Source: Afifellaceae bacterium | Lineage (GTDB): Bacteria; Pseudomonadota; Alphaproteobacteria; Rhizobiales; Afifellaceae | Assembly (NCBI GenBank): GCA_028284625.1 | Contig: JANQRH010000005.1 | Span: forward strand, 124,001-188,000 | Direction: 5' to 3' | Length of the DNA: 64,000 nucleotides | Part shown: positions 8,263 through 38,291 of the stretch, piece after piece | Layout: each line of letters begins with the position of its first letter | Numbering within the stretch: the stretch's first letter is position 1 | Made by a program: the position numbers and the translations under genes | The notes under the pieces: model-generated | What the model was told of the DNA's origin: nothing | What the model saw: the letters and a program-made list of their open reading frames with translations, nothing else | Databases searched by the model: none

Positions 8263-9291
8263 GTGACGCCGCGCGCCTTTATCAGCGGATTGGCAGGAAC
8301 CGAGCTTTCGGACGAGGAAGCTGCCTTCCTGCGTGAGGCACGCCCTTGGGGCGTGATCCTCTTTGCCCGCAACATGAACGATCCCGATCAAGTGCGCCGG
8401 CTTTGCCGCGCCGCACGCGGAGCGCTGGAACGAGAGGACGCGCCGGTTCTCGTCGACCAGGAAGGCGGCCGCGTTCAGCGCTTCGGGCCGCCACACCTCC
8501 GCGCCTATCCGCCAGGCGCACGCTACGGCGAGATCTATCTGCACAACTCGCTCGCCGGCGTCGAAGCTGCTTATCTCGGCGCACGTCTGATCGCGCTCGA
8601 CCTCCATGCCTTGGGCATCACCATCAATTGCGTGCCGGTTCTCGACATTCCGGTGGAGGGCGTGACGGCGGCGATCGGCGACCGCGCGCTCGGCCTGACC
8701 GTCGATGCGGTCGCCACGCTCGGCGGCGCGCAGATCGACGGCCTGCTGTCAGGTGGCGTTCTTCCGGTGATCAAGCACATGCCCGGACACGGCCGCGCCC
8801 TCGTCGACAGTCATCACGAACTGCCGCAGGCCGATGCCACCATGGCCGAGCTGGAAGCCCAGGATTTCACGCCGTTCCGGCTCCTGGCCAAGCGATCACC
8901 CTTCGGCATCACCGCGCATGTGGTATTTTTGGACGTGGATGACGCTGCGCCGGCTACGCATTCGCCTTTGGTAATCGTTAACGTTATTCGAGAGCGAATC
9001 GGCTTTGATGGCGTTTTGATGACCGACGATATCAGTATGGAAGCACTTTCCGGCACACCGCGTGAACGCGCAGAGCGGGCGATCGCCGCCGGCTGTGACC
9101 TGGTGCTTCATTGCAATGGCGAAATGGAAGAAATGCGCGGCATCGCTGAAGGCGTGCCGGAGCTGTCGGAGGCCATGCTTGAACGCGCGGCGGCAGCCCT
9201 TGCCCTGCGCCGCGAACCCGAGGAAGTCGACCGCGCCGCATTGGAGCGCCGCTTCGATTACCTGCTGACCCAGGTTCAGGAACCGGCATGA
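8263..9291 (+). CDS. nagZ: Beta-N-acetylhexosaminidase NagZ
   Basis: The 342-residue glycoside hydrolase family 3 enzyme removes GlcNAc from anhydro-muropeptides during cytoplasmic peptidoglycan recycling. Visible motifs are LVDQEGGRVQRF, the KHMPGHG substrate loop with the catalytic Asp-His pair in DSHHELP, and the nucleophile Asp in LMTDDISMEAL. It starts with GTG at 8263, 23 bases after the SPOR gene, and overlaps scpA by four bases (ATGA), which implies translational coupling. Its products can influence AmpR-type beta-lactamase induction elsewhere; no such genes are visible here. Confidence 0.94.
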   Translation: MTPRAFISGLAGTELSDEEAAFLREARPWGVILFARNMNDPDQVRRLCRAARGALEREDAPVLVDQEGGRVQRFGPPHLRAYPPGARYGEIYLHNSLAGVEAAYLGARLIALDLHALGITINCVPVLDIPVEGVTAAIGDRALGLTVDAVATLGGAQIDGLLSGGVLPVIKHMPGHGRALVDSHHELPQADATMAELEAQDFTPFRLLAKRSPFGITAHVVFLDVDDAAPATHSPLVIVNVIRERIGFDGVLMTDDISMEALSGTPRERAERAIAAGCDLVLHCNGEMEEMRGIAEGVPELSEAMLERAAAALALRREPEEVDRAALERRFDYLLTQVQEPA

Positions 9292-28972: not shown

Positions 28973-29590
28973 CTAGTTAGAGAAGCCCTCCGCCAGAAGC
29001 GCCATGCGCACCAGCTCCGACAGGCTTCCCGCCCGCATCTTCGCCATCAGATTGGCCCGATAGACCTCCACCGTGCGCGGGCTGATGCCGAGATCATTCG
29101 CGATCACCTTGTTCGGGCTGCCGGCGACGAGCCCTTCCAGCACCTGCCGCTCGCGCGCCGACAACGTCGCCATACGCTCCGACGCGGCAGTGCGTTCCCG
29201 GCCGACCTCCTCAGCCGCCGCATGCCGCGCCATCGCCTCGCGCACGGCTTCAATCAGCGCCTCGTCGGCGAACGGCTTCTCGATGAAGTCGGCGGCGCCA
29301 AGCTTCATGGCCTCGACGGCCAAAGGCACTTCGCCATGCCCGGTGATCACGATAACCGGAACATCATGCTTGTCGGCACGGAGCTTTCGAAGAAGCTCAA
29401 TCCCGCTCATGTCCGGCATGCGGATGTCGGTCACCACGCAGGCGGGTTCGGAGAGCGGAAGCGCGTCAAGAAACGGCAGCGCCGACGCATAGGCGCAGCT
29501 CTTCAGCCCAGCGGTTTCCAGGAGGAAGGTCAGCGATTGACGCATCGCCTCATCGTCGTCGATGACGTGAACGACCGCATCAATCGCCAT
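28973..29590 (-). CDS. fixJ: Response regulator FixJ
   Basis: The 205-residue regulator has a receiver domain ([12 protein letters not shown], phosphoacceptor Asp55 in [12 protein letters not shown], Lys in IEKPF) and a LuxR-type helix-turn-helix ([33 protein letters not shown]). It is phosphorylated by FixL at low oxygen and activates genes such as fixK. The ATG at 29590 overlaps the end of fixL by 11 bases and gives FixJ's normal length. Confidence 0.93.
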
Positions 29591-31103
29591 CTTCTGTCTC
29601 TCCTCTCGCTGCCGGCAGCGTAAAGCGGAATCGCGCGCCCCCGCCTGGATTGGCCTCCGCCCATAGCACACCGCCGTGCGCTTCGATGATCGTGCGCGAG
29701 ATGGAGAGGCCGATCCCCATGCCCTGCGGCTTCGTTGTGACGAAGGGCTGGAACAGTTGCGACTTCATTTCCGGCGCAACGCCCGGCCCGGTGTCGGACA
29801 CGCTGGTTTCCACCATGCCGTTGTCGGCGAGCATCGTCGTGATCGACAGCTCCCGATGCGCGGAGTGGCCGTCCGACATGGCGTCTGTGGCATTGCGCAT
29901 GAGGTTGACCAACACCTGCTGCACCTGCACGCGGTCGGCGACGACGGCATCCGCACGCGGATCCAGGTTGAAGCGCACCTTCACGCCATGCTGCTTGGCC
30001 CCGACCAGCGCCAGCGCGCTCGCTTCCTCCACCAAGGTGCTGATCTTCTCTTTCTGCATCTCGGTTTCACCGCGCCGAACGAAATCGCGTAGCCGCCGGA
30101 TGACTTCCCCGGCACGCAATGTCTGTTCGGCGGCGTTGTCGAGCGCGTCACGCAAACGCTCCGCCTCCGGATCGTCTCGCGTTTCCAGAAGGCGGCGCGA
30201 CCCCTTCACGTAATTGCCGATCGCGGCGAGCGGCTGGTTGATCTCATGCGCCAGCGCCGACGCCATTTCCCCCATCGCCGTGAGGCGCGAGATGTGCACG
30301 AGCTCCGCCTGCAGGTCCTGCAATCGTGTCTCGGTCCGCTGCTGCTCCGTGAGGTCGCGGATGAAGCCCGTGAAGTAACGCCGATCGGCGGAGTGCATCT
30401 CTCCGACCGCCAGCTCCATCGGAAATGTCGTCCCGTCCCGGCGCTGACCCACCACGGCGCGGCCTTTGCCGATGATGCGTCGCTCTCCGGTCTTAAGGTA
30501 ACGGCTGATATATTGGTCGTGCTGCTCGCGGTAGGGCGAGGGCATGAGCATGCTGACATTGCGGCCGACCGCTTCCTCGGCGGAGAAACCAAACAACCGC
30601 TCAGCCGCGCTGGAGAACGACTGCACGACGCCCTGTTCGTCGATGACGATCATCGCGTTGGGGACGGTGTCGAGAATGGACCGCAAATGCGCTTCGCCAG
30701 CGTGCGCCTCGGCGGTCGCGAGTGCGACCTCGCGCCGGGCGCGATAAAGCCATTCGCCGAGCCCAGCCGTACCAATCCCGATCGACACGAAGGCGGCCAG
30801 GCTGGCGATCTCGCCGACCGTGAACTCCGAGATGAACAGAAGGACAAGCGACGCGCTCAGCGCTGTAGCGAGCAAGCCCGGCCCAAGGCCGCCGACCGCT
30901 CCGGCGATCAATATGGCCACCAAGAAGAAGAGAAACGCCGCGTGACCGGCAAGCGACGGCCCCAGGAGAAAGCTTAAGATGAGTGCCGCCAGGACGACAG
31001 AGATGCTCAAGCCGTACTCGAAAAGCACCGACTGCCCGGCAGGCAGGCGAATCAGATGCCCCTCCGACCTCCTTGCAGAGATTGTGCGGTCTTCAGCTGT
31101 CAC
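29580..31103 (-). CDS. fixL: Oxygen-sensing heme histidine kinase FixL
   Basis: The 507-residue kinase has an N-terminal membrane part (about residues 30-117, roughly four helices), a PAS heme domain and a kinase core. The heme ligand is His195 in [11 protein letters not shown], with GKGR nearby and MELAVGEM matching FixL. The phosphorylated His is 286 in [16 protein letters not shown]; the ATP-binding [18 protein letters not shown] is intact. Oxygen binding to the heme switches off the kinase. It is the first gene of a fixLJ operon, divergent from fixK. Confidence 0.94.
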
Positions 31104-31187
31104 GCGCCCAGCCGCAACGCCGCCGCGGAGGCCGTCTGCCGCGCCCCCAGGATTCCCGAGATTTCCGCAGGATTCGCCTCCGTAAAA

Positions 31188-31195
31188 CTACGTTA
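31188..31195 (-). promoter_or_regulatory. Possible FixJ half-site upstream of fixK
   Basis: CTACGTTA (read TAACGTAG on the other strand) matches six of eight positions of the GTAMGTAG element described for FixJ. It is 73 bases before the fixK start in the 164-base fixL-fixK gap. Weak evidence: a single short match. Confidence 0.25.
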
Positions 31196-31267
31196 GTGGA
31201 CATACCGAATTCCGCTCAGCCGCTGGTCTTTCTATCTCATGTAGAGGCGACGTAGGAGGGGATTCCG

Positions 31268-31972
31268 ATGCTACATTGGCAAGGTGCACCGGCGACAGCC
31301 GAGGTGGTTCCCCTGCGAGCCAAGACCAAGGGGACCAAGAAAACCCATCCGACGGTCAGCGATATGCTCTCCACGATGGGCGTGCGCATGCGTTATCCGC
31401 GAAACAGCGAAATCTACGGCGAAGACGAGCCAGCGGAGTTTGTCTACAAAGTCCTGAACGGCGCCGTTCGGCTTTCCAAGCTGATGAGCGACGGCCGCCG
31501 TCAGATCAGCGCTTTCTACTTGCCGGGCGACGTGTTCGGCTTGGAGACCGACGACACGCATCTCTTCTCCGCAGAGGCTGTCGGCGACACGGAGGTGCTG
31601 ATCGTCAAGCGTGGCGCTTTCCTGGCGGAGGTGACCCGCCATCCTGAGTTGGTCCGCCAGCTCTGGGCACAGACGATGGATCATCTGAGGCGCGCGCAGC
31701 ATCACATGTTGCTGCTCGGCCGCAAGAATGCGCAGGAACGCATAGCCGCCTTCTTGCTGGAGCTAGCTGAACGCCTGGGCTGCAACGGCAAGATCAGGCT
31801 GCCCATGTCGCGCCAGGACATCGCCGACTATCTGGGCCTGACGATTGAGACCGTATCGCGGACGCTCACGCAGCTGGAGCGGGACGGGCTGATCTCCATC
31901 CCCGTCTCGCGGCAAATCGTGCTACGCGACCGCACCGCGCTCGGGATCATGCACGGCAGCCTGGCTGCTTAA
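31268..31972 (+). CDS. fixK: Crp/Fnr-family regulator, FixK type
   Basis: The 234-residue protein has a cyclic-nucleotide-type effector domain (SEIYGEDEPAEFVYKVLNGAVR; SAFYLPGDVFGLE) and a Crp/Fnr helix-turn-helix (MSRQDIADYLGLTIETVSRTLTQLERDG). There is no N-terminal cysteine cluster, so it is not an oxygen-sensing FNR; oxygen input would come through FixLJ. AGGAGGGG precedes the ATG. Divergent placement from fixLJ fits direct activation by FixJ. Targets are outside the window. Confidence 0.88.
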   Translation: MLHWQGAPATAEVVPLRAKTKGTKKTHPTVSDMLSTMGVRMRYPRNSEIYGEDEPAEFVYKVLNGAVRLSKLMSDGRRQISAFYLPGDVFGLETDDTHLFSAEAVGDTEVLIVKRGAFLAEVTRHPELVRQLWAQTMDHLRRAQHHMLLLGRKNAQERIAAFLLELAERLGCNGKIRLPMSRQDIADYLGLTIETVSRTLTQLERDGLISIPVSRQIVLRDRTALGIMHGSLAA

Positions 31973-31974
31973 GG

Positions 31975-32400
31975 CTAGTCCGGACGCTCAGGGTCGCCTT
32001 CATGATCGGGTAGGGCAGCGTCGAAGCCCTTCGCCGCGACGATCCGTTCTGCCGCCCAGATATTGTCGAGCACGACAATCTCGTCGGGCGCGTCGAGCGT
32101 GCCGATCGACACGTCGATGCTCGGCTCGTCCTCATAGTCCATATAGATCTGCGCCCCGCACGAGCCGCAGAACGCGCGGCGCGCCTTGTCCGACACGCGG
32201 CGGATGATCGGTCGTCCCTTCGTCACCGCGAAGGCCTCGCGCGGCATCAGAACCCAGGTCATGAAGGCCGCGCCCGAGCTGCGGCGACACGTTCCGCAAT
32301 GGCAATGCACGGCGTGCATGTAGGGCTTGGCCGAACGATAGCGGATCGCTCCGCAATGACACCCGCCGGTGTGTGCCGGTTGGCCGTGGTCATCCGTCAT
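31975..32400 (-). CDS. GFA-domain zinc protein
   Basis: The 141-residue protein has the glutathione-dependent formaldehyde-activating (GFA/Mss4-like) zinc fold. Ligand cysteines appear in GGCHCGAIRY, HCHCGTCRRSSGAAF and FCGSCGAQIY. Proteins of this fold are often annotated as formaldehyde-activating, but true activity has been shown for few. The start at 32400 gives the usual short lead before GGCHCG. It is convergent with fixK (two bases apart) and downstream of the carbonic-anhydrase-like gene. Confidence 0.85.
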   Translation of the reverse strand: MTDDHGQPAHTGGCHCGAIRYRSAKPYMHAVHCHCGTCRRSSGAAFMTWVLMPREAFAVTKGRPIIRRVSDKARRAFCGSCGAQIYMDYEDEPSIDVSIGTLDAPDEIVVLDNIWAAERIVAAKGFDAALPDHEGDPERPD

Positions 32401-32422
32401 GGCGCTTCGCGACGCTGATCCG

Positions 32423-33526
32423 CTATGCGGACCCGCGTTGGGCGGCGTCGAATGCCCGCGCATATCCCATATAGAGCGGCGGCGTCATGAGGATGACCTT
32501 GCGCTTGACCTGATCGAGCGGCGCGATCTTCACGGCCGGACGCTTGCCCCAGAGCCAGCCGCCTTCCAGCACCTGGCCCTCGGTCGTCTCGGCGCCGGCG
32601 GCAAGGAAGGTCTCATCTTCCGCGATCGTGCCGTTGGCGACAATGCTGCCAATGCCGATCAGCGACCGTGCGCCGATCGTGCAATCGCCGAGCGTCACGT
32701 TGTGCCCAATGGTGACGTCGGCGCCGATGACGGCGCGCTCGCCCGGCCGACAGCGGATCAGCGTGTTGTCCTGGATATTGGAGTTTGCCCCGATCTCAAT
32801 CACGCCATCTGAGGAATCGAACTCGCAGCCGAACCAGATGCTGGAATTCTCCGCCGCGATGATGTTGCCACGCAGCCGTGCGGTGGCCGCGACAAACACA
32901 CTCTCATGGATGTTGCCATCGGTGAGCGCCCGCGCCGCCCCAGGCGTGGTTCCGACCCGTTCGCGCAGCAGTGCTGCACGTTCGGCCACCTCGCCGGGCC
33001 GTAGGTCACGCTGGGGTTTTGCGGGAATGCCCGCATAGAGCTTGCCGCTCTCAAGCTTGGAGCGCGGAAAGACGACAGCGCGCGCCTCCAGCACGACATT
33101 GTCCGGCACGACCGACGCATCGAGCACCAGCACGCCGTCTTCCAATACGACGTCGTTGTGCACCGTGCAGGCATGGATGACTGCGTTTTCGCCAACGGTG
33201 ACACGATCGCCGATCTCCGTCGGCAGCAGATCGTGCTCGATATGGACCGTGGAGCGATCGCCGAGCGTGAAGTCGTCGCCCGCCTTGATGACGTGGCCGT
33301 CGGCGCGAATGACGCTCGACGTGCCGAGCCGGGCATTCCTGCCGATCGTGGCGCGACCAAGCACGGCAGCGTCGGCGCCGCAGCGCTCCAGTGGCGTCGC
33401 AAGGCTCGGCGAAACGCCCTCATAAGCAAGCTGATAGGCAACACCGCCGCGCGCCGGTTCCACATCCGGCAAGTCGACGGACGGCGCGGCGTTCTTCTCT
33501 TTGGTCTGCGTCACAACCCGACCCAC
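32423..33526 (-). CDS. Fused tandem gamma-carbonic-anhydrase-like (left-handed beta-helix) protein
   Basis: The 367-residue protein contains two left-handed beta-helix domains with hexapeptide repeats, at about residues 50-155 and 205-340. Usual gamma-carbonic anhydrases have one domain of about 170 residues. Compared with the Cam zinc ligands (His81, His117, His122), the first half keeps positions 1 and 3 (His95 in STVHIEH, His118 in AVIHAC) and has Glu113 at position 2. The second half keeps only position 2 (His275 in TIGHNVTLG). In true enzymes ligands 1 and 3 come from one subunit and 2 from its neighbour. The start is GTG at 33526, with another GTG 12 bases in. Carbonic anhydrase activity is possible but unproven. 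Confidence 0.8.
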   Translation of the reverse strand: MGRVVTQTKEKNAAPSVDLPDVEPARGGVAYQLAYEGVSPSLATPLERCGADAAVLGRATIGRNARLGTSSVIRADGHVIKAGDDFTLGDRSTVHIEHDLLPTEIGDRVTVGENAVIHACTVHNDVVLEDGVLVLDASVVPDNVVLEARAVVFPRSKLESGKLYAGIPAKPQRDLRPGEVAERAALLRERVGTTPGAARALTDGNIHESVFVAATARLRGNIIAAENSSIWFGCEFDSSDGVIEIGANSNIQDNTLIRCRPGERAVIGADVTIGHNVTLGDCTIGARSLIGIGSIVANGTIAEDETFLAAGAETTEGQVLEGGWLWGKRPAVKIAPLDQVKRKVILMTPPLYMGYARAFDAAQRGSA

Positions 33527-38201: not shown

Positions 38202-38291
38202 TGGCGGATGGGGTGGGATTCGAACCCACGAGACGGTCGCCCGCCTGCCGGTTTTCAAGACCGGTGCCTTCAACCACTCGGCCACCCATCC
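38202..38291 (-). tRNA. tRNA-Ser (anticodon TGA)
   Basis: The minus strand folds as a class II tRNA. The acceptor stem is GGATGGG with CCCATCC, discriminator G and encoded CCA. The anticodon loop CTTGAAA (anticodon at 38255-38257) reads UCA and other UCN codons. The T-arm is GTGGG TTCGAAT CCCAC, and a long variable arm is present, as expected for serine. Length is 90 bases including CCA. Confidence 0.97.

Follow-up and report, generated by a model that had tools for sequence, protein, structure and literature searches.

Gamma-class carbonic anhydrases (gamma-CAs) are held to be trimeric, with the metal always located between subunits, and those characterised are trimers. The window analysed here, a stretch of 64,000 nucleotides from an Afifellaceae genome, contains a gene which joins two such domains in a single chain, and raises the question of how a metal site shared by two subunits, and an assembly of three, are accommodated in it. 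The gene is located at 32423..33526 on the minus strand (the earlier note gave no strand), encodes 367 amino acids from a GTG startcodon, and is recognised as a fused double gamma-CA-like gene from its translation and from full-length homologues. Pfam reports only hexapeptide repeats in the protein, the NCBIfam equivalog model for gamma carbonic anhydrase (NF050158) matches it in two stretches totalling 144 bits, below the curated cut-off of 250, and in phmmer searches of the PDB both halves matched gamma-CAs, with half 1 matching 3r1w at an E-value of 1.4e-20. The GC fraction at third codon positions is 0.79, similar to that of adjacent genes, and comparison with the copy in a sister species (95% conserved, dN/dS 0.053) shows that the gene is under strong purifying selection.

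Division of the active-site residues between two domains

Half 1 (residues 30-175, 33002..33439, minus strand) and half 2 (residues 205-337, 32516..32914, minus strand) are both predicted left-handed beta-helices, the former from alignments, the score test described below, secondary structure and pLDDT, and the latter from alignments, structure matches and the same score test. Half 1 keeps the A face of the gamma-CA subunit, the donor of His81 and His122 in Cam numbering, and half 2 keeps the B face, the donor of His117. They are separated by a connector (residues 176-204, 32915..33001, minus strand) with a short helix at residues 179-190, delimited by secondary structure and pLDDT, and are followed by a C-terminal helix with a conserved Tyr352 (residues 339-366, 32429..32512, minus strand; secondary structure, pLDDT and homologue alignment), a helix which ordinary gamma-CAs place on the B side of their interface (interface table, PMC8000050).

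The earlier note had described two gamma-CA-like halves with the metal-binding histidines divided between them. All codons concerned were read. The register was taken from HMM alignments of half 1 to the solved gamma-CA 3r1w and of half 2 to 3ixc, and from a joint alignment with 43 single-domain gamma-CAs; these all agree and place every residue named in that note at the position it had given. Half 1 residues 74, 76, 89, 90, 95, 113 and 118 align with half 2 residues 237, 239, 252, 253, 258, 275 and 280, where the single-domain proteins have R, D/E, Q, D/E, H and H in 43/43 and the final H in 42/43, and so hold the full set within one domain with one exception at His122. On the minus strand, half 1 of the fused protein has Arg74 and Asp76 (33299..33307; Cam Arg59 and Asp61), which are equivalent to the Asp-Arg part of an inter-subunit Asp-Arg-Asp* triad (PMC8000050), and the predicted metal ligands His95 (33242..33244; Cam His81) and His118 (33173..33175; Cam His122), with Glu113 (33188..33190) at the lost His117 position. 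Half 2, on the same strand, has Asn250, Gln252 and Asp253 (32768..32779; Cam Asn73, Gln75 and Asp76) and the predicted ligand His275 (32702..32704; Cam His117), with Arg258 (32753..32755) and Gly280 (32687..32689) at the lost His81 and His122 positions.

This split was counted in 48 fused homologue sequences, about three quarters of which are from one genus and for which the lowest pairwise identity is 39%. The equivalents of Arg59, Asp61, His81 and His122 are kept by half 1 in 48/48, and those of Asn73, Gln75, Asp76 and His117 by half 2, likewise each in 48/48. Conversely, half 1 has Gly at the Gln75 position in 48/48 and Arg (41/48), Glu, Ser, Pro, Thr, Asn or Ala at the His117 position, with His in 0/48, while half 2 has no Arg at the Arg59 position and has a His at position 81 in 1/48 and at position 122 in 1/48, both in the same protein (L044). 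The three histidine ligands are complete only when half 1 and half 2 are combined, and in neither half alone except for L044 half 2, while Arg59, Asp61, Gln75 and Asp76 are complete in the combined set and divided between the halves in 48/48. Chance is excluded as the origin of the split by this invariance, and the three histidines hold to the predicted division throughout, as do the other catalytic residues. L044 (L044:1492-2565, from genome G082) has all three histidines in half 2 besides two in half 1, and is perhaps an early or reverted state.

The proton-shuttle residues Glu62 and Glu84 of Cam are missing, with an invariant Gly77 and with His98 in their place, as in short-loop CamH-type enzymes. 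The CamH-type gamma-CAs (YrdA, 3r1w, 3ixc and 1v3w, Cap) have the same fold, the same register and, once the fused halves are combined, all the same short-loop catalytic residues, and they too have no acidic proton-shuttle loop. The fused protein differs from them in having two domains per chain and one site per two domains, in that neither half can make a site with a copy of itself, and in its eroded third-subunit faces.

Two AlphaFold runs on single chains, using different alignments of 17 and 43 sequences (the latter without four plasmid-record sequences), gave a pTM of 0.87 in both cases and pLDDT values of 89.9 and 88.9, with both halves folded and the C-terminal helix ordered, and three to four of the five models per run were far poorer (pLDDT 62-77). 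Half 2 superposes on solved gamma-CAs with Z of about 28 and rmsd of 1.1-2.0. The placement of the halves relative to each other was judged solely from the pTM and from PDB entry 3c8v, which both models match over 297 and 294 residues covering both halves (Z 26.9 and 26.6, rmsd 3.3), while matches to other solved chains span about one domain. Going by these models, a solved chain exists with two such domains similarly placed. This chain, a 'putative acetyltransferase' (YP_390128.1) of Desulfovibrio desulfuricans G20, matches the fused protein in fold over both halves; it is just 18% identical and is not in the best 60 sequence matches of either half. No description of 3c8v was found in the literature searched, where the sole paper naming it concerns peptide design. 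A PDB search with the connector only gave chance matches, and a viral structure library gave generic hexapeptide folds only.

Distribution and gene neighbourhood of the fused family

Full-length fused homologues are present in 15/397 genomes and 7/141 genera of the order Hyphomicrobiales and also in named MAGs of Rhizobiales, and plasmid-borne copies were found in Xanthobacter autotrophicus Py2 (Xaut_5022), Methylibium petroleiphilum PM1 (MPE_RS22160), Agrobacterium deltaense and Methylobacterium bullatum. The gene is core in Methylobacterium (97/99 genomes, the genus having been assigned by a 98% match to M. bullatum) and patchy elsewhere in the order: it is rare in four other families (1/69, 1/28, 1/4 and 1/30 genomes), and its full-length form is found in 2/11 genomes of the window's own family. 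No member was detected outside the order among 385 genomes sampled from the class and 398 from the phylum, but one is present on the plasmid of the betaproteobacterium Methylibium. The NCBI entries WP_011831868.1 (M. petroleiphilum PM1) and Xaut_5022, named 'gamma carbonic anhydrase family protein', belong to the fused family, and such record names omit the duplication and the split site.

A maximum-likelihood tree built from 61 domains groups the first halves into a single clade (100/100) and the second halves into a separate one (100/99), with a long stem leading to each. Because each set of halves is monophyletic, the family would be most simply explained by a single old fusion with complementary loss afterwards. 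Two Methylobacterium genomes additionally have weak gamma-CA-like matches with one internal TAG (G341:C29:46004-46369 and G179:C3:103501-103860), which are possible pseudogenes.

In the window, the genes flanking the fused gene are a GFA-type (formaldehyde-activating family) gene, one for a regulator of the Crp/FixK type and a DUF3179 gene. None of these generally accompanies the fused gene across its hosts, and no neighbour common to all these hosts was found. The GFA-type gene (31975-32463, minus strand) is directly downstream, where its first ATG gives a 41-base overlap with the fused gene and 32400 is an alternative start; it is not beside the fused gene in the sister species. The adjoining region at 28973-31972 contains FixJ-like, FixL-like (PAS histidine kinase) and Crp/FixK-like genes, an oxygen-type regulatory set in which the FixJ-like and FixL-like calls come from translations only. 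A tRNA-Ser gene (anticodon TGA) is located at 38202-38291 on the minus strand.

A different setting was found on the plasmids of Xanthobacter Py2, Methylibium PM1 and A. deltaense, where genes for a GntR regulator, a B12-binding subunit, a PaaK-like CoA ligase, MeaB and a methylmalonyl-CoA-mutase-like large subunit precede the fused gene and a cobalamin adenosyltransferase gene comes after it, with some additional genes intervening in PM1. The same gene set is partly present at G082, L012 and, some distance off, G231. A cluster of hcl, hcmAB, meaH and a GntR gene has been described as the 2-hydroxyisobutyryl-CoA mutase cluster of A. tertiaricarbonis and M. petroleiphilum PM1 (PMC7176365), and hcmA, hcmB, meaH and hcl adjoin the fused homologues in Py2, PM1, A. 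deltaense and G082. A search of PMC7176365 for carbonic anhydrase gave no mention, and the literature searched contained no described role of the fused gene in 2-hydroxyisobutyrate (fuel-ether) degradation clusters. The hcmA/hcmB/meaH/hcl cluster was found neither in the window nor in its genome, where the best HcmA match, at 43%, is an ordinary mutase, and a role in mutase clusters is therefore not the general function of the family.

In the mutase clusters, the fused gene is also preceded by a conserved and apparently helical module (GDxxAAxxLLxHSVAxGHxRLAxRRYFxARxLGA), about 85-100 residues long. This module is a separate frame in Methylibium PM1, in L012 and, unannotated, in Xanthobacter Py2, and is joined in frame to the fused gene in A. 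deltaense, G082 and G231. It has no family match in Pfam, and its sites are L099:6331-6585, L012:4651-4977, L100 at about 8690-8986, the N-terminus of L101:7686-9068, and the L044 and L048 frames.

The complete set of catalytic residues would make CO2 hydration the default expectation for the family, to which a PaaY-like hydrolase is a serious alternative in view of the thioester setting. The same composite metal site would then hydrolyse CoA thioesters, in the manner of the housekeeping thioesterase PaaY. The fused gene is located between a B12-dependent acyl-CoA mutase and the cobalamin adenosyltransferase, with an acyl-CoA ligase in the cluster (Py2, PM1, A. deltaense, L012 and G082), surroundings in which CoA thioesters are handled and no carboxylation step is evident, and PaaY is a gamma-CA relative with thioesterase activity which has been described as bifunctional with CA activity in A. 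baumannii (PMC467105). The PaaY/CaiE subfamily (TIGR02287, NF010150) has a related hexapeptide-repeat domain and a link with CoA-thioester metabolism, but its members are single-domain, and the fused protein scores far below both curated cut-offs (77.8 of 319.6 bits for PaaY, 62.4 of 305 bits for CaiE); moreover, the window genome and Methylobacterium do not have the mutase cluster at the fused gene. We regard thioester hydrolysis as a real possibility, at clearly less than even odds, and CO2 hydration by the composite site as the default.

Partition of the subunit interface and fate of the third-subunit faces

The trimer interface table for four gamma-CAs has R45, D47, H66 and H89 on one face and Q60, D61 and H84 on the opposite face, with an inter-subunit bridge of Arg45-Asp61* (PMC8000050). 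These residues correspond to Cam 59, 61, 81 and 122, and to Cam 75, 76 and 117, and the split in the fused family coincides with these two opposite faces of one subunit interface. To avoid picking residues by eye, all 120 columns (positions 20 to 141) were scored in each half for likeness to the 43 single-domain gamma-CAs. Columns of the A face are gamma-CA-like in half 1 only (mean difference +3.69, n=16) and those of the B face in half 2 only (-4.15, n=9), while the remaining 95 columns favour neither half (-0.32). The partition was significant in a permutation test (p = 5e-6), also after exclusion of the histidines (p = 1.4e-4) or of every active-site residue (p = 0.0024), which argues that the whole interface, beyond the ligands, is kept once per chain as the A face of half 1 against the B face of half 2. 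Together with the invariant 48/48 split, this supports from sequence the earlier proposal that the two halves form a joint site.

The two faces which would meet a third subunit have fared differently. At non-catalytic positions of the half 1 B face, the hydrophobic fraction falls from 0.71 in ordinary enzymes to 0.00 in the fused family and the charged fraction rises from 0.01 to 0.37; for the half 2 A face the corresponding changes are from 0.70 to 0.36 and from 0.01 to 0.27, whereas the two kept faces show no gain of charge. Since the unused faces have become polar and charged and 8/15 host genomes contain no other gamma-CA, the trimer is probably not formed and no third domain would be bound in the old way, i.e. 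the usual trimer has probably been dismantled in this family. The earlier note had cautioned that two domains do not divide evenly into a trimer; this is answered in part by the eroded faces and by the hosts with no other gamma-CA, the oligomer itself being what we infer from them. One difficulty is geometric: in an ordinary trimer, half 1 would end and half 2 would begin on the side where the third subunit is now absent, and the connector has to pass along that side.

The same observations bear on the other assemblies that can be envisaged. The composite site could be part of a pseudo-trimer in which either a half from a second chain or an independent gamma-CA takes the third position, as characterised gamma-CAs are trimeric and the heterotrimer of plant complex I has one complete site only (PMC7447434). 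This is unlikely, as the faces for a third member have lost hydrophobic residues and gained charges, over half of the genomes could supply no separate gamma-CA, and two domains per chain close a three-fold ring only by an asymmetric arrangement. The plant heterotrimer (CA1, CA2 and CAL2) is a close parallel in how paralogous domains have undergone complementary losses, with only one interface keeping three histidines and zinc (PMC7447434), but it is a true heterotrimer of separately encoded proteins bound to complex I, and the fused protein is one bacterial chain. A non-catalytic scaffold or assembly factor with a merely structural metal site would be in line with the plant complex I gamma-CAs, which have no measured activity (PMC7447434), and with several gamma-CA-like proteins which are inactive (PMC7199487); we consider it improbable, as the catalytic Gln75, Asn73 and Arg/Asp residues are invariant in addition to the ligands and the gene is core in Methylobacterium with no partner gene common to other hosts. 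Separate stacked homotrimers of each half (NNN and CCC), with the histidines conserved for other reasons, would preserve the three-fold symmetry of the fold, but would need both faces in each half where just one is kept, and could not hold three histidine ligands in either trimer nor account for eight split residues invariant in 48/48, so that this arrangement is highly implausible.

A probable gamma-class site within one chain

We conclude, with a probability of about 0.78, that this is a duplicated and fused gamma-CA in which complementary losses have left one canonical interface and one metal site per chain, most likely in a monomer or a domain-swapped dimer. A gamma-CA gene would have been duplicated and fused once, after which each copy lost the half of the active site and of the subunit interface that the other retained, such that half 1 would contribute the A side alone (Arg59/Asp61, His81 and His122) and half 2 the B side alone (Asn73, Gln75, Asp76 and His117). 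The canonical interface would then occur once per chain, with half 1 packed against half 2, a single metal ion bound via His95, His118 and His275, Gln252 positioning the substrate, and Asp76-Arg74-Asp253 locking the halves together. With the third-subunit faces eroded, a trimer would be less likely than a monomer or a domain-swapped dimer, either of which would yield the same site. The most likely chemistry would be that of the gamma class, in which a metal-bound hydroxide attacks CO2 or a related carbonyl, with the replacement of the Cam proton-shuttle Glu62, and the lack of carbonic anhydrase activity in many gamma-CA-like proteins, being points against such activity here. More tentatively, and at just short of even odds, the family may represent a gamma-class enzyme freed from the obligatory trimer as a single-chain, two-domain, one-site monomer or domain-swapped dimer, which in some lineages was recruited into B12-dependent acyl-CoA mutase clusters to act on a new substrate.

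The fused family is real and conserved, and apparently not previously described: literature searches for fused or tandem gamma-CAs found none, in keeping with the earlier note, which knew of no such enzyme. While the fold is not new, the complete partition of site and interface, the distribution, the association with mutase clusters and the probable loss of the trimer are. With exactly one gamma-type interface kept in a single chain, the residues of its two sides can be told apart, and whether a trimer is needed can be asked directly. The family also illustrates cleanly how complementary degeneration converts a homo-oligomer into an obligatory pair, in parallel with plant complex I, and it is both core in Methylobacterium and repeatedly found in 2-hydroxyisobutyrate (fuel-ether) degradation clusters.
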